A DNA stretch of 64,000 nt from Lachnospiraceae bacterium (GTDB taxonomy: Bacteria > Bacillota > Clostridia > Lachnospirales > Lachnospiraceae): assembly GCA_015057865.1 (NCBI GenBank), contig SVDH01000012.1:1-64000 (forward strand). The letters run 5' to 3'. Each line of letters begins with the position of its first letter. Positions within the stretch are counted from its first letter, which is position 1. The translations under genes and the position numbers were made by a program. The notes beneath the pieces are model-generated. The model searched no databases. It worked only from the letters and a program-made list of their open reading frames with translations, and was not told the DNA's origin. Of this stretch, positions 6,218-49,621 are shown in pieces.

Positions 6218-7435
6218 TCAGCAGCAGGGAGCAGCAGACGCAGATCGCCAGATGTCACGTTCTATACAGACATTCAGCCCACAGCAACCGGCTGGTTCCA
6301 AACCATATTTCAGATACAGTTCCGCAAGCATATCCTTGGTTTTACGGAAGTAATCAAGGCTTGTGGGCTTCATGGAGCCATTGACAGGCTTGCCGAAGGG
6401 CATCCATACCGAGGCACTGGGGATCACACCGCGTTCAGCCAGATAAGTCGCGCCTTCCTTGAGCGTTTCAAATGGCTCGAGGCCAATGATGAAGTTGCAG
6501 AAGGACTTGCCAGGGCCGTACTTGTCAGCAATATAAGTCAGCGCATCCAGATGCCGCTGCTTCGTCGTAAAGCTGCGCTTGCCCGGGGTGATACTCTCTC
6601 CGAGCTTGTCATCCCATACCTCGAGAGAACAGGCGATGCGGCTCGCGCCCATGTCAAAATAGCGATCGATCACATCATGCTGCTCCGGAGGCGTGATATA
6701 CAGAAGAAGTTCGCCCTTTAATGCCTTCCGCGCACCGCTTTCAAGCATGTCGCGCATATAGGCTGTGATGTACTTCTCCTCTGTCTCTGCTTTTAAAGTT
6801 GAGCCTCCGGTAAGCTGCATGCTGTTGACCCCGTCATGCTCCACAGCATAGAGAACCACTTCAGATACATCGCGGGGGCTGGGGATAAAGGGCATCGGCT
6901 TATGTCGTTTCGCCAGTGCCTCGAACTGTCCGCCGGAGAAGCAAAACTGACAGGGTTTTCCTGCGCAGGCGTAGTCACAGGGCCACAGGCACTGGAAGGC
7001 CACCCAGTCACAGCCCTGCAGTACGGCGTTCCCTATAAAGGGCATTCCCGAACTGGTCTTTTGCTTAAAAAACTCTGTGCCCGGCATCAGCTCAACCGGA
7101 GTGACAGGGTCTCCCTTATACAGCAATGCCGGCTTCCCGTCAACAAGGGAGAGGCGGAAATCCGTTTTCATATCGTTCATGTATTTGAAAAGCTTGAGAT
7201 TATCCCAGGAGAACATAGAAGAAAGCGTACTGAGATGAAAACCCAGATCTGTGGCCATCACGATCGTCCCGTCCGGCAGTTTAAAGCTGTTGCAGGTCAG
7301 AGCATTGGGATAGATACGGTAATCTTTTCCGCACTTCTGATAGACCTCCCGATCGATTATGATCCCTCGGCTGACGACCAGACATTTGAGTTCTACGGAA
7401 TCGACAGTCTCTCCTAAAACCTTATAGTACATCAT
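6218..7435 (-). CDS. Radical SAM-like protein
   Basis: CLWPCDYACAGKPCQFCFSGG cysteine cluster, MQLTGGST, FIIGLEP; RBS GGAGG before MMYYKVLG. Confidence 0.8.
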   Translation of the reverse strand: MMYYKVLGETVDSVELKCLVVSRGIIIDREVYQKCGKDYRIYPNALTCNSFKLPDGTIVMATDLGFHLSTLSSMFSWDNLKLFKYMNDMKTDFRLSLVDGKPALLYKGDPVTPVELMPGTEFFKQKTSSGMPFIGNAVLQGCDWVAFQCLWPCDYACAGKPCQFCFSGGQFEALAKRHKPMPFIPSPRDVSEVVLYAVEHDGVNSMQLTGGSTLKAETEEKYITAYMRDMLESGARKALKGELLLYITPPEQHDVIDRYFDMGASRIACSLEVWDDKLGESITPGKRSFTTKQRHLDALTYIADKYGPGKSFCNFIIGLEPFETLKEGATYLAERGVIPSASVWMPFGKPVNGSMKPTSLDYFRKTKDMLAELYLKYGLEPAGCCGLNVCIERDIWRSASAAPCC

Positions 7436-7472: not shown

Positions 7473-8966
7473 TCATAATGAAATCCCTGGCTTATACTCC
7501 AGTTCTTCGATATCCAAATCTACCCGGATATATCCGTCAACTTTTTCCCTACGTAAAAGAACTACCGTCTCCACATGCACCGTCTGCGAAAACTGATCAA
7601 CCGGCCGCACCTTTGCCACCTGATATCCGCCATCGCACAGGATCCGCAGATCCCTTGCAAGTGTTGCCGGATCACAGCTGACATAAACGATCCGCTCCGG
7701 TGCCATCTCCAGCATGGTTTTCAGAAGAGATACTTCACATCCTTTACGTGGCGGATCAACAACGATCACATCCGGGTGAGCTGCTTCTTTGTGCTCGTCC
7801 TTCTGCTTGTCATAAAAAGCCGGCACGATCTCTTCTGCCTTTCCTGTAAAGAAAGTAACATTTTCAATCCCGTTAAACTTCGCGTTTTCCTTTGCATCCG
7901 CGATCGCCTCCGGAACGATCTCAACACCGTAGACATGCTTTGCCTGCTGCGCCAAAAACAGTGATATCGTTCCTGCGCCGCAGTATAAATCCCATACCGT
8001 CTCCTTACCGGTCAGACCGGCATATTCCAACGCCGTCGCATACAGCTTTTCTGTCTGCTTTGTATTGACCTGAAAGAATGATTTTGGCGAAATCCGATAG
8101 GTGATATCAAGCAGTTTTTCTGTGATAAACGATTCGCCCCGGATCAGACGTACTTCATCCCCCAGGATGACATTTGTCTTCTCCGTATTTACATTGACAG
8201 AAAAGGAATGCATACCCGGAATCGCAAATAAGTCGTCTGCCAGCTGTTCTTCATTTGGAATCTTTTTTCCATTGATGATCAGGCAGACCAGGATCTGACC
8301 TGTCGCAAATCCTTTCCGGATCAGCACATGACGGACCAGGCCTTTGCCGCTTGCTTCATCATATGCTTTGATCCCATAATGTTCCATATGGGAAATCACA
8401 ACATCTAAAATCTGTCGATTCACAGGCACGCCCAAAGCACAGTCTCTGTTTTCAATGATCCGATGGCTGCGGCCTGCATAAAATCCCGTAATGATCCTGC
8501 CGTCCTGCGATGTGCCGATCGGAAACTGTGCCTTGTTACGGTAGTAATATGGTTCGTCCGATCCGATGATCGGTTCCATACAGATTTGTGAGGCTCCTGT
8601 TTCTCCAACCGACTCTCCCGGCAGTATCACCGAAAACCCGCCGATCCGCTCCAGCACATCCTTGACTTTGCGCGTCTTGAATTCCAGCTGTTTCTCATAG
8701 GAAAGTGTCTGCAGCTGACATCCGCCACACGGTCCGGCAAATGCGCAGTTCGGTTCCACGCGGTCCGGGGACGGCTTCAGGATCCGGATCAGCCGCGCAT
8801 ATGCATAGGTCTTTTTCACCTTGGTAATACCTGCCAGGATATGATCTCCCGGCACGGCGTCACGCACAAAAAGGACGGCACCGTCCACACGGCCGATGCC
8901 CTCCCCATTTGATCCGATATCTTCGATCGTCAATTCGATTTCGTCATTCTTTTTAAAACTCAGCAT
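7473..8966 (-). CDS. rlmD: 23S rRNA (uracil-5-)-methyltransferase, RlmD/TrmA family
   Basis: TRAM N-terminus, CAFAGPCGGCQLQ Fe-S cysteines, DLYCGAGTISLFLA, VDPPRKGC, VYVSCDPATLARD. Confidence 0.93.
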   Translation of the reverse strand: MLSFKKNDEIELTIEDIGSNGEGIGRVDGAVLFVRDAVPGDHILAGITKVKKTYAYARLIRILKPSPDRVEPNCAFAGPCGGCQLQTLSYEKQLEFKTRKVKDVLERIGGFSVILPGESVGETGASQICMEPIIGSDEPYYYRNKAQFPIGTSQDGRIITGFYAGRSHRIIENRDCALGVPVNRQILDVVISHMEHYGIKAYDEASGKGLVRHVLIRKGFATGQILVCLIINGKKIPNEEQLADDLFAIPGMHSFSVNVNTEKTNVILGDEVRLIRGESFITEKLLDITYRISPKSFFQVNTKQTEKLYATALEYAGLTGKETVWDLYCGAGTISLFLAQQAKHVYGVEIVPEAIADAKENAKFNGIENVTFFTGKAEEIVPAFYDKQKDEHKEAAHPDVIVVDPPRKGCEVSLLKTMLEMAPERIVYVSCDPATLARDLRILCDGGYQVAKVRPVDQFSQTVHVETVVLLRREKVDGYIRVDLDIEELEYKPGISL

Positions 8967-39206: not shown

Positions 39207-39247
39207 AACAAAACGCCACTTTCTTTGAAAAAAGTGACGTTTTTTTA
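39207..39247. terminator. Terminator hairpin downstream of MATE gene
   Basis: aaacgccactttctttgaaaaaagtgacgtttttt; A/T runs on both flanks. Confidence 0.65.
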
Positions 39248-39289: not shown

Positions 39290-40660
39290 TTACGCTTCCT
39301 GCGTCCGTTTTTTGATCCACTGGTGCTTCTTAAAATGCACGAACACCGGAATACTCTTAAACACCTGGTCTGACTGGATGCATAAGACGACCCATACCAC
39401 AGGCAGCTTCCACCAGAATGCTGCCATAAAGGACAACGGCATGACAATACACCAGATGCAGATCAGATTCATATTTGCCATAAACTTCACATCGCCTGCG
39501 CCGCGCATGATACCTGCGCTGACCGGCATCTGATAGGACATTCCCACCATAACGAAACACATCAGGATGATCAATTGATCCGCCAGCTTTAAGGCTTCCG
39601 GAGAGAGTCCGCTGTATATGGTTAGCAAAGGCAACCGCAATGCGAACAGAAGCAGTCCCAGTATGATTCCCACGGCAAGGGACAGTACACTTAGTGTCCG
39701 GGCGTCCTCTCTGACTTTGGCATCAATACCCTCACCCACAGCTTTTCCGATCATAACTGCTGAAGTCAAACTCATGGCCTGTACGACGACTTTCAAATAT
39801 TGATAAAAAGTCGTAGCCACTGAGTTCGCTGCCAAAGCATTCGAGGAAAGGCGTCCCAGGATTCCTGTCTGGATCGGAATGGAGACTGCCCACAGGATCT
39901 GCGAGATCAGCACCGGCATGAATACCTTCCGGTAGTCGGTCCGCAGCTGCCTGTCAAATTTCAGGAAGTTTTCAGAAAACAGCTTTAATCTCGTATCCTT
40001 CTTCCAAAGGAATATAATGACAATCATAAATTCCACGACCCGCGCGATCAGTGTTCCGATCGCAGCGCCTTTAATCCCCATCTCCGGGAAACCGAACCGG
40101 CCAAAGATCAACGTATAGTTGATCGCAACATTGATGATCAGTGAAACCAGTGAAATGCCAAAGGATATCTTTACGATCTCAACACTGCGTAAGGCAGCCA
40201 TCAGCACGTTTGTCAAAAGAAACAGCAAAAACGTGTATTTGATGATCGACAGATAAACCACGCCTTCACTGATCACTGCAGCATCCTGTGTAAAGATGGC
40301 GATCAGTTGTGACGGCATAACCGCGCTGATTGCGATCGCAGCCACACCACAGATAAAGGCGAGCTTCACGGCGATGCCTGTGACACGACGAACCGGTGAG
40401 AGCCTGCGTTCACCCCAATACTGGGAAGCAAGAACAACCAGTGCCTCACCGATCGACAGTGCGATCTGCTGCACGATAAAGAAGATGGAATTGACAGTCG
40501 TTGCTCCATTTAACGCAGCCTGGCTGTAATGACCGAGCATCATATTATCTGCCATATTGACACTGTAGGCCACCAGGTTTTGCAATGCCACCATCAGAAA
40601 CAGCGGTAATAAGGATTTATAAAAATCCCGGTCTTTTGTAAAAAACGTTTCCTGGTACAT
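39290..40660 (-). CDS. MATE family efflux transporter
   Basis: LPLFLMVALQNLVAYSVNMADNMMLGHYSQAALNGATTVN; 12-TM-like profile. Confidence 0.9.
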   Translation of the reverse strand: MYQETFFTKDRDFYKSLLPLFLMVALQNLVAYSVNMADNMMLGHYSQAALNGATTVNSIFFIVQQIALSIGEALVVLASQYWGERRLSPVRRVTGIAVKLAFICGVAAIAISAVMPSQLIAIFTQDAAVISEGVVYLSIIKYTFLLFLLTNVLMAALRSVEIVKISFGISLVSLIINVAINYTLIFGRFGFPEMGIKGAAIGTLIARVVEFMIVIIFLWKKDTRLKLFSENFLKFDRQLRTDYRKVFMPVLISQILWAVSIPIQTGILGRLSSNALAANSVATTFYQYLKVVVQAMSLTSAVMIGKAVGEGIDAKVREDARTLSVLSLAVGIILGLLLFALRLPLLTIYSGLSPEALKLADQLIILMCFVMVGMSYQMPVSAGIMRGAGDVKFMANMNLICIWCIVMPLSFMAAFWWKLPVVWVVLCIQSDQVFKSIPVFVHFKKHQWIKKRTQEA

Positions 40661-40703: not shown

Positions 40704-40928
40704 CTAGTCCTCCTGCAGGCGTTCGATCATTGCCCAGAGGCTTTTCACGCTGTTAAAGTTCTCCGGAATGATTTCTGCTGCGGTAACAGTGATATCATAC
40801 TCTTCGTTGATGATGGAGATGATCTGAAGCACATCCAGTGAGTTCAGCTGCTTACTGTCCACCAGATCCTCTGCATCCCAGTCTACATCATCTTTAAAGT
40901 CTTCCAGCAACTCCAGTAATTCTTCCAT
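40704..40928 (-). CDS. Acyl/aminoacyl carrier protein (DltC-like)
   Basis: 74 aa acidic; LVDSKQLNSLDVLQIISIINEEYDITVTAAEIIPENFNSV with candidate phosphopantetheine Ser (NSLD). Confidence 0.85.
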   Translation of the reverse strand: MEELLELLEDFKDDVDWDAEDLVDSKQLNSLDVLQIISIINEEYDITVTAAEIIPENFNSVKSLWAMIERLQED

Positions 40929-41017
40929 TTCATTTCCTCTCTTTCCTTCAGATGATTCTATTATAGTCTGTTTTCACTCACAATCAAATATACACTGCCG
41001 CCTTAAAACGATCCTGC

Positions 41018-42613
41018 TCAAATCCGGCCTGTCGCCCGCAGATACGGGATCGCCCATAACACCAGCAGGATTACGGTAATGAACACGCCCATCACACCAA
41101 TCTGCTTTGTATTGCGCAGCGTTCCCAGGATATCTTCTTTCTTTCTTTCCGTTTCCGGTACAACGAACATCCGCTCTCTTGCCGCTGTTTCTTCGCTCGT
41201 GACTCTTGTCAATGCACTTCCGATGATCATCGCGACGATGTTGCATTCCATTCCAAACAAGCTCGGGTCAAGCCAGACAGGAAGCGTTACCCCGGTAAAG
41301 TGCTGGAACAGCCGCATTCCGAAGCAGGCCAGGAAACCGGTCAGCATACCGGCAAATGCACCCGCTTTTGTCAGCCGTTTACTCAAAACACAGCCAAGCG
41401 CAACCGGCATCCATGCGGCCGATACGATCGCGCCGCCCAAGAACATGATCCAGAAGATCGAAGGCGGATTGGTCAGTGCAAAAGTAAGAACAACAACACT
41501 TGCAATTACCATAAAGATCCGTCCGGTCCGAATATGGTGTTCCTTCTCTTTTCCGAGAATATCATTGGCAAACGATGCGCCGATCAGTGACAGGAACGTC
41601 GTCGCCGAAGAGATTCCTGCTGCAAGTACACCTGTCAAAAGCAATACGCCAAGGATCTTCGGCAGCAGGTTCATCGCCGCCCAGATCAATACATGTGACG
41701 GATCATCGAGATCCGGATGCATCAGATTGACAAACACTGCCGACATTCCCACAAGCAATTCCAAAAAAAAGATTCCAAGTGCTGCCGGCAAAGCGGATCT
41801 GACAACCGTATGCTCGCTTTTTGCCATCAGATAACGGCTCGACTGCCACGGTCCGATCATACAGACAGACATCCATACGATTCCGTAGATCAGCCCCCAG
41901 GCCACATTCTCCGCACCGGTATCATAGATCACGCCCGGCTGACCCTTCCAGGACAGATAATCCGTCAGCTGCGGTGAGGCCGCAATCTCGGCGATTGAAT
42001 GAAACCATCCGCCGGTCCGCCAGGAGATAATGAACGTAGCCACGACCAGAATACCCGTAAACAGCGCTGCCATCATCGTATCCGTGATCAATACACCGGT
42101 CGAGCCGGAAAGGATCGTCAGGATTGAGAATACGATCAGTGCCAGAATGACACACAGCTTATAATCGACACCTGTTACAACTGTCATCAGCGTTCCGATT
42201 CCCTGTACCGTCGCCAGAAGATACACTGTCATCGTGATCACAGCTGTAATAGCTGCCAGATTTTTCATTTTTTTCGAGCAGAACCGTTTTCCGAAAAACT
42301 CCGGGATCGTCAGTACTTTACTCCTTCGCAGATACCGCCCGAAAAATACGGCACCGATGATATATCCCGCCAGCTGCATGCTTGAAAGAATGATCATCGG
42401 CGTAAATGCGCCCTGGAAGAATGTCGACGCATCTCCCATAAACATGCCTGTACTGGTATAAGAGGCGATCAGGGAACCGGCGATCAGTAACGCCGGTGCC
42501 CGCCGCCCCGCGACATAGTAATCTTCTGTCGTACGGATCCTTCTGCTGACCCAGGCACCAACCATGATATAGACGGCCATTGAAATACACATGCCGAGGA
42601 AATAAATATTCAT
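41018..42613 (-). CDS. Sodium:solute symporter (SSS) family protein
   Basis: RRIRTTEDYYVAGRRAPALLIAGSLIASYTSTGMFMGDASTFFQGAF; multi-TM. Confidence 0.88.
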   Translation of the reverse strand: MNIYFLGMCISMAVYIMVGAWVSRRIRTTEDYYVAGRRAPALLIAGSLIASYTSTGMFMGDASTFFQGAFTPMIILSSMQLAGYIIGAVFFGRYLRRSKVLTIPEFFGKRFCSKKMKNLAAITAVITMTVYLLATVQGIGTLMTVVTGVDYKLCVILALIVFSILTILSGSTGVLITDTMMAALFTGILVVATFIISWRTGGWFHSIAEIAASPQLTDYLSWKGQPGVIYDTGAENVAWGLIYGIVWMSVCMIGPWQSSRYLMAKSEHTVVRSALPAALGIFFLELLVGMSAVFVNLMHPDLDDPSHVLIWAAMNLLPKILGVLLLTGVLAAGISSATTFLSLIGASFANDILGKEKEHHIRTGRIFMVIASVVVLTFALTNPPSIFWIMFLGGAIVSAAWMPVALGCVLSKRLTKAGAFAGMLTGFLACFGMRLFQHFTGVTLPVWLDPSLFGMECNIVAMIIGSALTRVTSEETAARERMFVVPETERKKEDILGTLRNTKQIGVMGVFITVILLVLWAIPYLRATGRI

Positions 42614-42765
42614 CTTATTTCCTCCTTCCCGCCGGACGAACGCTCCGGCTCTGAGCCGCCTTCTGTATCAAGATACGGGCCATACTCTCTTTTGATTCTT
42701 TTATACGCAAGGACGCTCGCGATCACGATCCACACGCCGACAAATACAGCAATTACGATTTCCAT
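42610..42765 (-). CDS. Small membrane protein (51 aa) overlapping the symporter start
   Basis: Minus reading: MEIVIAVFVGVWIVIASVLAYKRIKREYGPYLDTEGGSEPERSSGGKEEIR*; its TGA overlaps symporter ATG (ATGA). Confidence 0.75.
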   Translation of the reverse strand: MEIVIAVFVGVWIVIASVLAYKRIKREYGPYLDTEGGSEPERSSGGKEEIR

Positions 42766-42766
42766 T

Positions 42767-44338
42767 TTACAATTCCTTCATTTGCTCTTTTAATGTCCGC
42801 CTGTCAATCTTCCCATGCAGATTGTGCGGCAGCTCTTCCATCTGTCTGATCTTTTCCGGCACCATATATTCCGGCACCAGAGCCTTCAGATGTGTTTTCA
42901 GTGCTTTTCTGTCAATCTCCCCGCTGTAATACATGATAATACGCTGCTTTTCATTGTCATAAAAGCAAGCGTTTTCCTCGACGCCGGAAACGGAAGCCGC
43001 ATTCGCCTCGATCTCTCCAAGCTCGATCCGGTGTCCCATATGCTTGATCTGGAAGTCTTTCCTTCCGGCAAATTCCATCTCTCCGTACTGGTTAAACTCC
43101 ACCAGGTCTCCGGTCCGGTAGATTTTCTCCGGATAACAGGTATTTACCGGATTCTGGACAAATACCGCATCCGTCAGGTCCTGTCTTCTGTAATAACCAT
43201 AGGCAATGGACGGACCGTAGATACAGAGCTCGCCCTGTTTTCCCGGTTCACTCACTGCCTGATTGTTTTCATCCAGCACCAGAACACCGATATTTGAAAA
43301 CGGGATGCCAATCGGCAGGCGGTCATTGTCGGCAAATTCTCTGTCCACTTTATAATAGGTCGTTCCGTCTGTACTCTCCGTCGGCCCGTAGGCGTTGATA
43401 AACGTCGCTTCCGGAAGCTCTTCCATCCAGGCTTTCAACGGCGGAATCTGCATCACCTCGCCGCCAAAGATCACTTTTTTGACACTGGAGATATCCGCCA
43501 GACCAAATGCCTTCATCCGGACGATCAGCGATAACGCCGATGGAACCCAGTAAAGCATCGTGATCTTGTGCTCTTCAATATATTTCATGATATAAGCCGG
43601 AAATGCATAATACATCTTCGGCACAATATGTGTCGTACAACCGACACAAAGCGGCGAAAAAATCTCCACGACCGCCATAACAAAGTATAGCGGTGCCTGC
43701 AGCACACTGCTGTCATTTGCCGTGATGTCATAATCTTTCGTCACTGCTTCGATGTAGCGGATCACCGACTCATGCGGTGTGACGACGCCCTTCGGATCCC
43801 CGGTTGATCCTGATGTAAATAAAACGTACAGAATATCGGTCGGCAGGATCTTGCGGCCGGCATCTGCGATCAGCTCTTCATCGACACCCTGCATGACAAG
43901 ATCCTCCAGGAAAAACACCTGTGTCTCTCCCGCGACCTGTGCGATCTGTTCTGCATTCTCTCTGACTGTTAAGAAGGCTTCCGGCTGCAATGTGTCAAGG
44001 ATCTTCTCTACTCTGGATAACGGCATCTCCGTATCCAGAACCGTATAGAAATTGCCGCTATAGGCCACACCCAGCATCGCCAGAATGCAGGAGATCGACC
44101 GGTCGATATAGATCGCAACCGGTTTTTTCAGCAGGTCTGATTTAATCAACCCCTGCGCGATTGCCTGTGACTGTTTCCGAAGATCTGAAAAGCTGATCTT
44201 TCGTTCCGGTTCCTGAAATGCTGTTTTATCCGGACAGATTGTTACGATCTCATCCAGAAAATCTGTTATGATACGAGCCAATATTTCATCCTCCGTTTTT
44301 AAAATCTTTCGTATTCTACACGAATCGACCGCAGACAC
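42767..44338 (-). CDS. Amino-acid adenylation/AMP-dependent ligase (DltA-like)
   Basis: LYVLFTSGSTGDPKGVVTPHESV; NAYGPTESTDGTTYY; IYRTGDLVEFNQYGEMEFAGRKDFQIKHMGHRIELGEIE. Confidence 0.9.
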   Translation of the reverse strand: MSAVDSCRIRKILKTEDEILARIITDFLDEIVTICPDKTAFQEPERKISFSDLRKQSQAIAQGLIKSDLLKKPVAIYIDRSISCILAMLGVAYSGNFYTVLDTEMPLSRVEKILDTLQPEAFLTVRENAEQIAQVAGETQVFFLEDLVMQGVDEELIADAGRKILPTDILYVLFTSGSTGDPKGVVTPHESVIRYIEAVTKDYDITANDSSVLQAPLYFVMAVVEIFSPLCVGCTTHIVPKMYYAFPAYIMKYIEEHKITMLYWVPSALSLIVRMKAFGLADISSVKKVIFGGEVMQIPPLKAWMEELPEATFINAYGPTESTDGTTYYKVDREFADNDRLPIGIPFSNIGVLVLDENNQAVSEPGKQGELCIYGPSIAYGYYRRQDLTDAVFVQNPVNTCYPEKIYRTGDLVEFNQYGEMEFAGRKDFQIKHMGHRIELGEIEANAASVSGVEENACFYDNEKQRIIMYYSGEIDRKALKTHLKALVPEYMVPEKIRQMEELPHNLHGKIDRRTLKEQMKEL

Positions 44339-45660
44339 TCACAGTCTTTTTTGCCCTTTTGTTTTGCATAGACACGGTACTGCTTCGTCCCGGTTTTTGT
44401 CTCTGGATAAACAAATGTAGCATCCGGTCCATATGGGCGGACCACCTGATACTTTGCATCCGAGTCACTCAGATCCTTCTCCGCAAACGCATACTCCACC
44501 TCCACCGCAGACCCTGTCCATGGTGTTGCCGTAATTTCTACGCCTTCGCCCGGAATGATATGCTGCTCCAGGTAGAGACTGTCGATCCGTCTGACAGAAG
44601 AATAATATTCTTCATCAGAGAAAAACATGTCCGCACCGGATTGTCCATTTTCTTCTTTTATCCAGACATCTGCCAGAACTGACGAAAACTTATCCGCACC
44701 TGTCACATTGCAATGCTCCCAATCTTTGAAATCATCTTTTGTCATCAAAAGATAATCCGGACGGATCAGGTTAAAATCATAATAGGAAACATCTCTTTTT
44801 GCCAGAAACTGTTTGATCACGGCATTGCGTTCCATATAGGCCGGGCCGGTCCGAAGGACCCAGCTGTAAGTGTTCGGAACGCCGATCACCATGAGTTTTG
44901 CATCGTGCTGCCGGCAAATCTCGCAGATCTCCCCCAGTTCATTCAGCGCATCTTCCGAAAGCATATCAATCGTCCATTCTTCCGGCTTAACCGATGCGTT
45001 AAAATCATAATCATTGATCTGTGTAAACGGTTTGAAACCATCCGGTTCGCGGTTGTTGTTCCAGTTTGCACTTGCCGGCTGCTCTCCCGAGATCTTCGCT
45101 TTCACATTCTTCTGCCAGGACCCCTTTGCGCCTCTGCTGCTGACCCATGGAAAGAAGTAGTTGACGGATTCCGTATCTTTTCCATACTCCGGGTCAAACA
45201 TGAAACCGGCAGCATTTTTCATCTTCACGCTGATTGGCTGTCCGGTATTTCTTGCACGGACAAACGCCGCCTCCGGACGGCTGTGTCTTTCATGCCCTTC
45301 TCCAAGGAAGTATGGATCCAGTGCCAGAACCACTGCCTTAGGTTCATGTTCTTCCATCACCATTTCCAGAAGCTCTTTCGAATGATACAGCGACTGTGCA
45401 TTGGTTCCCATATTAAAGGAATGCAGCCCTGTTTTTTCATCGATCACAGACGGATCGATTCCCTCATAGCAATGGGAATCTCCCAGATAAACCATATCCA
45501 GACTGCCCTTTTCCATCTTGCGGTATTGTTCAAACATCGCTCCGCTGGCCGAGCTGTAAGGAGTGATCAAAAATGTCGCAACCGCATTCAGTACAATGAT
45601 CCCCGCAAGCAATGCGATAACCCAGAGGATCCGTTTTTGGCTCTTTTTAGAAATTCGCAT
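44299..45660 (-). CDS. DltD-like SGNH-type membrane-anchored protein
   Basis: N-terminal TM; DMVYLGDSHCYEGIDPSVID; DWEHCNVTGADKFSSVLADVW; C-terminal beta-rich extension. Confidence 0.78.
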   Translation of the reverse strand: MRISKKSQKRILWVIALLAGIIVLNAVATFLITPYSSASGAMFEQYRKMEKGSLDMVYLGDSHCYEGIDPSVIDEKTGLHSFNMGTNAQSLYHSKELLEMVMEEHEPKAVVLALDPYFLGEGHERHSRPEAAFVRARNTGQPISVKMKNAAGFMFDPEYGKDTESVNYFFPWVSSRGAKGSWQKNVKAKISGEQPASANWNNNREPDGFKPFTQINDYDFNASVKPEEWTIDMLSEDALNELGEICEICRQHDAKLMVIGVPNTYSWVLRTGPAYMERNAVIKQFLAKRDVSYYDFNLIRPDYLLMTKDDFKDWEHCNVTGADKFSSVLADVWIKEENGQSGADMFFSDEEYYSSVRRIDSLYLEQHIIPGEGVEITATPWTGSAVEVEYAFAEKDLSDSDAKYQVVRPYGPDATFVYPETKTGTKQYRVYAKQKGKKDCECLRSIRVEYERF

Positions 45661-47215
45661 AAACAAATCCTCCTCCCACATCCTGAACATATGAGAAAGA
45701 TGCTATCGTCAGGAATATCAGCAGCATCCAAATGCCCCAGCGGACCGCCGCATTTTTGTTTTGGATCCATAAAAAGACATCCGTTCCGCGCTCCCGCATC
45801 ACGCTGCAGATAAATACGATTGCAATTGCGATCAGAACCAGGACCGGCACAAATGCTACATCCTTTGCAAGTGTTTTATTAATGATGCTCTCAACCGTAG
45901 ACAGGTCCCAGTCCGGTCTTGTAAAGACGCACCGCAGCGCGATAAAGCTGTCTGCAACACGCTGATACTGTTCAAACAAAAGACCGATGCATACCAGGAT
46001 AAATGTCCTTATGATCTGGAACACATGGAATCCGCCGGACTTCATATCGATATGCAATTTTTCGGCAAGACGTTTGAAAACCGGTGCCAAGAGTTCGCTG
46101 ACTGCGATCAAAACGCCGTTATATAATCCCCAGAAAACATAATTCCAGCCGGTTCCGTGCCAGATACCGACGATCAGAAATACGACCACATTTCCAATCG
46201 CTGCCGGCAGGATCCTTCCGGTATTGCCGAACTTTTTCACGCCCCATTTCATGACGTTCATCATCGGCTTCGTAACGGCAAGCGGATAAAACACATAATC
46301 CCGCATCCATGCACCAAGTGTGATATGCCAGCGTCTCCAGAAATTAGCCATAGACGTTGCAAAATAAGGCTGCTCAAAGTTCTTAAGCATCTGTACGCCA
46401 AACAGGCCGGAGACCGCCATTGCCATATCGATCCCGCCTGAAAAGTCTGCATATTCCTGCATTGCAAATGCCAACATGCCAAATACGACCACTGCACCGC
46501 TCTGCTCACCGACCGGTGCGTCATAGATCATCTGTACCGTTTTTGCCAAAACATCTGCGATCGCATACTTTTTGAATGCGCCAAACAGGAACAAAGCGGC
46601 CATCCTGCAGAATGTATCCCAGTCAATCGAATGGCTGCAGAAAAACTGATCGCGAAGTTTGTTGAACCGGTTGATCGGTCCCTGAATAATCTGCGGGAAC
46701 CAGGAAACAAATAGCAGAAAATGGAAATAATTCTTCTCATGTTGATACTTTCCGTTATAAACATCTGCCAGATAGGAAACTGCCTGAAATGTGTAAAACG
46801 AAATGCCAAGCGGCAGGATCAGTCCTGTACTAAGCAGGCCCCCTTCCTGTCCCGGAAGCAGATTACAGATCTTAAACGCTGCCAGCATGCCAAAGTTGAT
46901 CACCAGAATGACAATCAGCACAAACCGTTTCTTTCTGATATATTTCTTTTTGATCGCTTTCTTTTCTTCTTTTGTGATTCCTTCTCTTTTTTGCTCCTGT
47001 TTTCGTTTTTCATTTAACCGGTCAAGGAGCTTTGCCGCGCCCCAGATGGTCACAGATGTGATCAGCAAAAACAGAACCCGCCAGCCTGCTAGCCATACAT
47101 AAAACAGCATACTTCCCACAAGAAGCAAAATCCACTGCTTTTTCCGGCATACTGTGTAATACAGGATAAACAAAATAGCCACAAAAAGGAAAAATAAGAT
47201 TGAATAAAACTGCAT
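45647..47215 (-). CDS. MBOAT family O-acyltransferase (DltB-like)
   Basis: PLGISFYTFQAVSYLADVYNGK; FPQIIQGPINRF; FWRRWHITLGAWMRDYVFYPL; GIWHGTGWNYVFWGLYNG. Confidence 0.95.
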   Translation of the reverse strand: MQFYSILFFLFVAILFILYYTVCRKKQWILLLVGSMLFYVWLAGWRVLFLLITSVTIWGAAKLLDRLNEKRKQEQKREGITKEEKKAIKKKYIRKKRFVLIVILVINFGMLAAFKICNLLPGQEGGLLSTGLILPLGISFYTFQAVSYLADVYNGKYQHEKNYFHFLLFVSWFPQIIQGPINRFNKLRDQFFCSHSIDWDTFCRMAALFLFGAFKKYAIADVLAKTVQMIYDAPVGEQSGAVVVFGMLAFAMQEYADFSGGIDMAMAVSGLFGVQMLKNFEQPYFATSMANFWRRWHITLGAWMRDYVFYPLAVTKPMMNVMKWGVKKFGNTGRILPAAIGNVVVFLIVGIWHGTGWNYVFWGLYNGVLIAVSELLAPVFKRLAEKLHIDMKSGGFHVFQIIRTFILVCIGLLFEQYQRVADSFIALRCVFTRPDWDLSTVESIINKTLAKDVAFVPVLVLIAIAIVFICSVMRERGTDVFLWIQNKNAAVRWGIWMLLIFLTIASFSYVQDVGGGFVYANF

Positions 47216-47417: not shown

Positions 47418-48563
47418 ATGAACTATGCATTGGTAATACTCTGCGGCGGGCTCAGCAAAAGAATGGGATTTGATAAAACATTTCTTCCTTTTGGAGACTG
47501 CAGCCTGTTACAATATCAGGTGAAGCGCTATTCTCCATATTTTCAGAACATCTATCTGTCCGTGCCGGCATACAGAAACAGACCCGTTGACTATCAGGCG
47601 ATCTGTGGCTGTAGGGCAATCGAAGATATGGTCGAAAACTATGGTCCGATCGGCGGTCTTTACAGCTGTTTTCAGAATACAGAAGAAGATATTTTATTCT
47701 TTACATCCGTTGATGCGCCATTTACAGATCCCGCACTTGCAAAAGAAATTTGTGAAGCACTGATCGATCAGCCGGAAGCAGATGTCTGCGGCATCCAGGA
47801 TCCGGAAGGCCGTACACAGCCTTTGTTTACTGCATATTCCCGCAGGATCCTGCCATGGTTAGAGCATGCCTTAGAGGATAACAATTACCGGCTCCGCGCG
47901 ATGCTTCGCAGGGTGAATGTTCATATCTTAGACCGGTTTCTTCCCACCGATCAGTTTTTTAACATGAATGATCCCGCTACCTATTACTATGCATTAAACA
48001 AGCTTTCGCAAAAGCTGCCCGGTGCATTTCCCGCAGACTTTGCAACTGCCCAGCCAAAACAGCCGACATCGATTCCATCCCTTTCCTTTGTCGCCAAATC
48101 CGGCACCGGAAAGACGACTTATCTCGAGAAACTGCTTCCGCTCCTGAAAAAGGAACTGCTGCGGATCGCGGTTGTCAAGCATGACGCACACGGCTTTGAG
48201 ATCGATAAGCCCGGGAAAGACAGCTATCGCCTCACGCAGGCCGGCGCAGATCATATGATCCTGACTTCCAAGGATAAGACAGCTGTCATCTTCTCCCACA
48301 AAGAGCAGAATCCTGAGCTGTCCTTTATCTTAAAACACATCGAAAATGTAGACCTGATCATTACAGAAGGATATAAACTTGGCGACCAGCAAAAGATCCA
48401 TATCTTACGCAAAGGGCATTGCGAAGCACCGATCGTCGATACCGATAAAATCATCGCTTATGTGACAGATTTTCCCTATGAAGCAGATGTTCCGGTATTT
48501 GACTTAAACCGTCCGGAAGACATCGTGCCGTTCCTGCTGACCAGATTCCGTCCGGATCTCTAA
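47418..48563 (+). CDS. Fused molybdenum cofactor guanylyltransferase MobA - MobB protein
   Basis: MobA: ALVILCGGLSKRMGFDKTFLPFG; MobB: SFVAKSGTGKTTYLEKLLPLLKK..RIAVVKHDAHGFEIDKPGKDSYRLTQAGAD. Confidence 0.9.
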   Translation: MNYALVILCGGLSKRMGFDKTFLPFGDCSLLQYQVKRYSPYFQNIYLSVPAYRNRPVDYQAICGCRAIEDMVENYGPIGGLYSCFQNTEEDILFFTSVDAPFTDPALAKEICEALIDQPEADVCGIQDPEGRTQPLFTAYSRRILPWLEHALEDNNYRLRAMLRRVNVHILDRFLPTDQFFNMNDPATYYYALNKLSQKLPGAFPADFATAQPKQPTSIPSLSFVAKSGTGKTTYLEKLLPLLKKELLRIAVVKHDAHGFEIDKPGKDSYRLTQAGADHMILTSKDKTAVIFSHKEQNPELSFILKHIENVDLIITEGYKLGDQQKIHILRKGHCEAPIVDTDKIIAYVTDFPYEADVPVFDLNRPEDIVPFLLTRFRPDL

Positions 48564-48662
48564 AAACGATACTTTATGGTATTCCCACCGTATTCTATGC
48601 AGAAACAAGATAGAACACTACTTACTCTGCATAACTGTTGTTTGACAACAAGGCCTATAATA

Positions 48663-48677
48663 GTATTGTAACAATAC
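48663..48677. promoter_or_regulatory. 15-bp palindrome upstream of MerR-family gene (candidate operator)
   Basis: GTATTGT-A-ACAATAC, just downstream of TTGACA (48642-48647). Confidence 0.5.
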
Positions 48678-48736
48678 AGTTTGATATCAGAAAAGATGCC
48701 TCAAAACCGGCATCCGATTTGAATAACAGGTGGACA

Positions 48737-49621
48737 ATGTCTTCAGATTACGCTTCTATCAATCGAAAACTGTCGATATCAGAAATGGCGCAGATTCATG
48801 ATATCACGCGTCAGACTCTGATCTATTATGACAAGATCGATCTCTTTAAACCGGCGATCACAGAAGAAAACGGCTATCGATATTACAGCACACTACAGAT
48901 CCCGCAGCTTCGCGAGATCTGTTTTCTGCGCGCGATCGGTATGCCGATCGATGAGATCCGCAAACACAATGCGTCCAACAGCTTCGATACTGCGATCGAT
49001 CTGTTAAAAGCACAGAATCAAAAGCTGCAAAAAGAAATAGACAATCTCAGAAAGCAGCAGAACAAGATTAAAAACCGACTGCGGATCTACGAGCATGCGC
49101 CGGATTATTTCGACGCGGAGTACAAACCGTTTATCCGCCATCTGCCGGAGCGCCATGTATATTATCATCCATGGAATCATGAGGATCTGACCAGACACGG
49201 CCTGCACTTTGCGCTGATGCGTACCTGGAACCAGGCAGAGCAGATGGGATTTCTCCCGTCGAACCAGTATGGCTCCCTGATCTTTTTAGAGGATGTGCAT
49301 GCCGGCGATCCGTTTGCACATGCAGGCTGCTGCAGCCTGATCTTCCCGGACGAACACGATCACCCGGAAAACGGAGAAGGCTATTATGTGCTGCCAGCCG
49401 CTGATTATGCCTGCCTGCAGCATTTTGGCATGCCGTATGAACCCCAATACTTAGAACGTCTTTTAACCTGGATCAAGGACAATGATTACACGGTCTTTGA
49501 TAACATTTACGACAAATGTGTCTTAGATGCCAGCTTCTATGAGAACAGTGACAATACGATGGATTTCTGCGAACTGCAGATCCCGATCCGCGGCACCAGA
49601 AGTGCCATGCTGGTATCATAA
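48737..49621 (+). CDS. MerR-family transcriptional regulator with C-terminal effector-binding domain
   Basis: LSISEMAQIHDITRQTLIYYDKIDLFKPAITEENGYRYYSTLQIPQLREICFLRAIGMPIDEIRK. Confidence 0.9.
   Translation: MSSDYASINRKLSISEMAQIHDITRQTLIYYDKIDLFKPAITEENGYRYYSTLQIPQLREICFLRAIGMPIDEIRKHNASNSFDTAIDLLKAQNQKLQKEIDNLRKQQNKIKNRLRIYEHAPDYFDAEYKPFIRHLPERHVYYHPWNHEDLTRHGLHFALMRTWNQAEQMGFLPSNQYGSLIFLEDVHAGDPFAHAGCCSLIFPDEHDHPENGEGYYVLPAADYACLQHFGMPYEPQYLERLLTWIKDNDYTVFDNIYDKCVLDASFYENSDNTMDFCELQIPIRGTRSAMLVS

Follow-up and report, generated by a model that had tools for sequence, protein, structure and literature searches.

Teichoic acids are D-alanylated by the Dlt system (DltA, DltB, DltC, DltD and DltX), in which an operon encodes a stand-alone adenylation enzyme, a separate carrier protein, an MBOAT protein and an SGNH transferase. 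The shuttle tyrosine lies within the FxYxxF motif of DltX (PMC12148441). In PatA and other MBOATs the FxYxxF motif is fused to the MBOAT itself, and those systems are described as acyl-CoA-dependent (PMC12148441). PatA/PatB and related MBOAT-SGNH O-acetylation systems pair such an MBOAT with an SGNH protein, the donor of PatA being acetyl-CoA.

The window, a 64,000-nucleotide stretch from the genome of a gut Lachnospiraceae bacterium (2.16 Mb, 59 contigs, 98% complete), carries a locus that shares parts with both systems. It consists of seven minus-strand ORFs and a terminator:

45647 to 47215, minus strand: MBOAT acyltransferase, DltB/PatA-like, 522 aa (Pfam MBOAT, 51.6 bits, E 1e-13)
44299 to 45690, minus strand: putative SGNH/GDSL-type membrane-anchored transferase in the DltD/PatB-like position, 463 aa (motifs and position)
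42767 to 44338, minus strand: stand-alone adenylation enzyme, here A, 523 aa (Pfam AMP-binding, 237 bits, E 4e-70)
42610 to 42765, minus strand: putative single-TM symporter accessory protein, 51 aa (MEIVIAVFVGVW...; matched by small ORFs upstream of SSS)
41018 to 42613, minus strand: SSS-family Na+:solute symporter, here SSS, 531 aa (Pfam SSF, PF00474, 109 bits, E 3e-31)
40704 to 40928, minus strand: carrier protein with a DltC-like role, here C, 74 aa (PP-binding, E 1e-4)
39290 to 40660, minus strand: MATE exporter (MatE, E 5e-43)
39210 to 39243, minus strand: terminator-like hairpin at the operon end (15-pair stem and T-run)

The original prediction had described these seven ORFs, in this order and on this strand, as a set with the activation-carrier-transfer logic of Dlt in an atypical arrangement (B-D-A-x-SSS-C). 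The seven genes, the Dlt-like logic and the unusual order are all borne out. The genes overlap or nearly touch up to SSS, with successive spacings of -44, -40, 1, -4, 89 and 43 nt, the last two being the SSS-C and C-MATE gaps. This spacing is operonic, and the locus is a single tight minus-strand operon. There is no strong terminator between C and the MATE gene, the sole strong terminator-like hairpin lying downstream of MATE (39243-39210), and the exporter is probably co-transcribed with the rest. Upstream, a divergent gene at 47418-48563 (plus strand) encodes a MobA-like/MobB fusion, and a MerR regulator follows at 48638-49621.

The MBOAT has a catalytic-type histidine, His353, within the motif WHGTGW. 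It scores 164 bits against the DltB equivalog model TIGR04091, below the cut-off of 375. Its C-terminus carries an acyl-shuttle motif, FVYANF, which contains Tyr519. Because the MBOAT itself carries this motif, the operon appears to join a Dlt-type donor to a PatA-type transferase; where PatA uses acetyl-CoA, the operon encodes an adenylation enzyme and a carrier. Of 50 MBOAT ORFs in the loci retrieved, most of them next to DltA-like genes, 45 have a terminal F-x-Y-x-x-F/Y, and the hybrid of fused motif and adenylation enzyme is therefore general among the relatives rather than specific to the window.

The predicted SGNH protein has a GDSHxY motif (GDSHCY, with Ser72) and a distal D/H pair, Asp323 and His326. 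It has no Pfam or NCBIfam match at 1e-3 (Lipase_GDSL_2 is weak, E 0.04), and DltD was found neither in Pfam, even at E 10, nor in NCBIfam at 1e-3. Its assignment comes from these motifs and from gene position, the fold itself having no profile support. Homologs of the gene are also found in the loci of relatives. By motif, the conserved histidine, the FxYxxF and the SGNH partner place the operon in the broad class of MBOAT-SGNH surface acylation.

The carrier has a predicted phosphopantetheine site at Ser30 (LNSLD), and its homologs adjoin A in relatives. It matches PP-binding alone, with no NCBIfam DltC model at 1e-3. There is no DltX; no separate microprotein with a C-terminal FxYxxF was found, the motif being on the MBOAT. 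A scores 285 bits against the DltA model TIGR01734, below the cut-off of 559.85.

No DltA above the cut-off is present in the genome. A second, sub-threshold Dlt-like set (A, C, MBOAT and SGNH) lies on contig C55 (L004, 7268-11665). Large CDP-glycerol/glycosyltransferase fusion genes flank it on both sides, and it adjoins a CDP-glycerol glycerophosphotransferase-domain protein. The A protein of this set keeps Asp235 (pocket code DAKCFVLGIK) and likewise falls far short of the DltA cut-off. A third MBOAT is encoded at C55:34272-35819. Among 120 sampled genomes of the family, DltA above the cut-off occurs in two, and 47 have one or more matches at E 1e-80 or lower.

Judged from these sequence comparisons, the operon is not a canonical Dlt operon. 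It is Dlt-like in its working and fails the defining features that were tested, so it is not filed as Dlt but as a variant within MBOAT-SGNH surface acylation. No published description of it was found in the open-access literature; subscription journals may hold one.

The substrate pocket of A was read at GrsA positions 235-236-239-278-299-301-322-330-331-517, which were assigned by way of the familiar motifs of adenylation domains. The resulting code is VMVYIGADGK. Position 235, where alpha-amino-acid adenylation domains have Asp, is Val220 in A, as an alignment to LgrA also indicates, and the acidic position 330 is Asp324. Other SSS-linked A domains read VMFYIGGDVK, VMLYMGADIK, SFVVFGLDTK, VLFYFGLDIK, IMPYMGLEMK, VMLFMGMDIK, SMLYFGFDTK and IMTMIGADGK; true DltA reads DLMVLCTVAK. 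A tree of 66 A domains places the ten SSS-linked ones in one 13-row branch (SH-aLRT 91), completed by L006, L008 and L009. SSS linkage changes four times on this tree, against 9.5 in shuffles. Every one of the 13 has V, I or S for Asp at 235 and D or E at 330. The A protein of the window falls outside the true DltA branch.

Without Asp235, an alpha-amino acid is disfavoured as the substrate; and since the loss is clade-wide and accompanied by an acidic 330, a cationic carboxylate with no alpha-amino group is probable. Since A neither groups with true DltA nor has the alpha-amino anchor, D-Ala itself appears unlikely, as had been proposed. Comparable pockets occur in BurA-A and ATRR-A: Asp235 is gone, an acidic residue stands at another pocket position, and the zwitterions activated are DMSP and glycine betaine (PMC7496086). 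These domains are parts of assembly-line or reductase enzymes, whereas A is stand-alone. Asp330 is not specific for betaine, because it is common to a related clade that retains Asp235 (DNLFLCLDAK). Asp235 is likewise absent from clades with no SSS (SMLYLALDIK).

Two wider groups were seen alongside. A Dlt-like family, widespread in Clostridia and often in the order A-C-MBOAT-SGNH, has the pocket SMxYxALDIK with no Asp235, and no symporter was seen in its members (L067, L075, L076, L078, L082, L083, L036 and others). A large Lachnospiraceae/Treponema DltA-like group (many of L013-L084) has both Asp235 and Asp330 (DNLFLCLDAK/VK), a pocket suggestive of a diamino acid substrate.

Conservation of the SSS linkage was followed in GTDB genomes, through 80 relatives of A, and by whole-genome searches. 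The arrangement of A, small protein and SSS is found in ten loci, namely the window, L005, L007, L011, L012, L053, L066, L069, L070 and L103; in L103 A and SSS are present and the small protein was not recognised. Because these ten recur with SSS proteins 56-66% identical and different flanks, the linkage is more than chance. L005 is a very close, same-genus-like relative at a contig end, with a partial SSS 94% identical. The contrary outcome, an A inside DltA and an SSS linkage not conserved, was looked for and neither part of it was found. The symporter is rare: matches at E 1e-60 turned up in 4 of the 392 order-level genomes, 6 of 397 at family level, 2 of 391 at class level and 1 of 300 at phylum level, each count including the genome of the window, and the phylum-wide sample added nothing new. 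In L007 a transposase-like ORF (6279-7224) appears to have been inserted after SSS, ahead of the carrier gene. L103 has a type II thioesterase-like gene (7772-8506, minus strand) directly after the carrier; its product may edit carrier that has been wrongly loaded.

The MATE exporter and the 51-aa protein, both named as members of the cassette, fared differently. The exporter is present in the same-genus locus L106 and was otherwise not found beside A in the relatives; as a core part it was rejected outside the genus. Where the start of SSS is in view, a similar small ORF (29-53 aa, MEIxIAxxxGxW) almost always directly precedes it, whether or not the locus has A. As such ORFs precede SSS homologs that have no nearby A, the 51-aa protein belongs to the symporter, most likely as a subunit, by analogy with YhdT-PanF and YjcH-ActP. 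A role as DltX was rejected, since it ends in KEEIR with no FxYxxF and travels with SSS. The E. coli acs-yjcH-actP operon likewise joins an AMP-forming synthetase, a small membrane protein and an SSS symporter for the same acid; however it feeds central metabolism, and the small proteins have no obvious similarity.

A model of SSS (pLDDT 83) matched SGLT, SiaT and CHT1 structures in a fold search, which confirmed the predicted fold and nothing beyond. By profile it matches a bacterial CHT (9rws, E 3.8e-14). The CHT choline symporters (SLC5A7, sfCHT) share the SSS fold; overall similarity is distant and their aromatic cage is partly kept. In the profile alignment the cage residues W62, W141 and W254 correspond to Tyr52, Tyr131 and Trp256, and the equivalents of Y91 and W406 are the non-aromatic Gln80 and Met390. 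The five-residue CHT1 cage (W62/Y91/W141/W254/W406) is aromatic in SSS at three positions and identical at one. Trp256 is invariant in the family of this symporter and aligns with CHT Trp254/Trp298, the residue in contact with the choline ammonium; this position is His in PutP, PanF and ActP and Asn in vSGLT. A Tyr at 52 or 131 is not distinctive, being also found in PanF/ActP or PutP/ActP. Column 52 (Tyr/Phe) is weak evidence, because it is the only one of the 22 columns separating A-linked from other members that maps to the CHT pocket. Plain choline import is insufficient as a role for SSS, because adenylation needs a carboxylate, which choline lacks.

Seven SSS relatives (43-50% identity) have no nearby A (L097-L100, L104, L105 and L108). 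They sit in surface-polysaccharide loci, four of the seven beside choline-kinase/LicC fusions or LicD. The Lic-1 system (LicA, LicB, LicC and LicD) imports a small cationic compound and decorates a surface polymer with phosphocholine; in contrast to the operon it activates by CTP and transfers a phosphodiester, not an acyl ester. In L097, L104 and L105, SSS adjoins or closely flanks an HTH-nucleotidyltransferase-choline-kinase-like fusion, LicD is found in L097 and L100, and L105 has in addition a BCCT and an APC permease. L098, L099 and L108 have SSS among polysaccharide genes. The fusion protein (L097 7164-8939, L104 7512-9284, L105 11979-13751) comprises a winged HTH, a LicC-like nucleotidyltransferase and a LicA-like choline kinase, and among 383 genomes of the order, 32 carry related proteins. 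In 20 LicCA loci surveyed for transporters, BCCT occurs in three and a distant APC in one, most having none recognisable. Genome G364 has a second LicCA locus, with a BCCT, and its SSS-linked LicCA may for that reason use a compound other than choline.

In the A clade, L008 has no SSS; an APC permease stands directly after C and shares 40% identity with the APC that separates SSS from LicCA in L105. L006 and L009 have neither SSS nor APC in view. That the SSS and APC families occur in loci of both kinds suggests a common class of substrate.

From this we infer a pathway of import, activation, loading, shuttling and transfer for a cationic acid with no alpha-amino group, a reading that we hold to be somewhat better than evenly probable. 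SSS and its 51-aa subunit would import the carboxylate using the Na+ gradient. A would adenylate it and load it on the Ser30-phosphopantetheine of C. The MBOAT would then move the acyl group across the membrane onto its own Tyr519, from which Ser72 of the SGNH protein may take it and esterify a cell-envelope glycopolymer. The APC of L008, of a family common to the Lic-like L105, supports this pathway; L006 and L009, where neither transporter is in view beside A, and the lack of acceptor genes near the operon speak against it.

The best guess for the substrate is a betaine (glycine betaine, gamma-butyrobetaine, carnitine or a relative), followed by an omega-amino acid. The fuller picture, a surface glycopolymer esterified with a quaternary-ammonium acid that a dedicated symporter of choline type takes up from the gut, is tentative, with rather less than an even chance. 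No OpuAC betaine ABC protein was detected in the genome, which counts in favour of the main reading; no LicD gene was found either. No acceptor or polymer genes flank the operon. A teichoic-like acceptor is plausible: L008 has a CDP-glycerol glycerophosphotransferase-domain protein, a TagD-type cytidylyltransferase and an IspD/TarI-type cytidylyltransferase, and L070 has an IspD/TarI-type cytidylyltransferase near its A locus. The suggestion that substrate and acceptor may both differ from those of Dlt is supported as regards D-Ala and, given L008 and L070, not supported as regards a non-teichoic acceptor.

The same pathway might instead handle an omega-amino acid (beta-alanine, GABA or 5-aminovalerate), imported by SSS or the APC permease, its distal amine bound by Asp324 at position 330. 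Losing Asp235 while keeping Asp330 is what removing the alpha-amino group of a diamino acid would leave, a related clade retains both residues, and APC permeases, one of which is in the L008 cluster, often carry amino acids. Trp256 and the transporters shared with choline-kinase-like loci indicate rather a quaternary or alkylated amine, and we regard this alternative as unlikely, though worth weighing. It is improbable that SSS moves a compound unrelated to the substrate of A, such as an osmolyte whose uptake is coupled to envelope changes, and is merely co-regulated. SSS relatives do occur in surface-polysaccharide loci of different chemistry, with polysaccharide genes alone around L108; but SSS lies between A and C where genes overlap or abut, goes with a single A clade and is replaced by an APC permease in L008. 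Ordinary D-alanylation, with a divergent DltA activating D-Ala and a symporter that imports alanine or is a passenger, has the identical activation-carrier-transfer parts and DltA models among the best full-length NCBIfam relatives of A in its favour, but is very improbable given the wide margins by which the DltA and DltB cut-offs are missed, an A with no Asp235 outside the true DltA branch, the missing DltX and the conserved SSS linkage.

If the import-and-transfer pathway for a cationic acid is right, Dlt-like machinery would have diversified beyond D-Ala in gut Clostridia, and surface charge could depend on a diet- or host-derived compound. The operon would also join a carrier-protein donor to an MBOAT with a built-in shuttle motif, a kind of MBOAT otherwise tied to acyl-CoA donors (PMC12148441). 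Should the substrate prove to be a betaine, the surface would gain a pH-independent positive charge, and D-alanylation and phosphocholine decoration would be joined by a third route.
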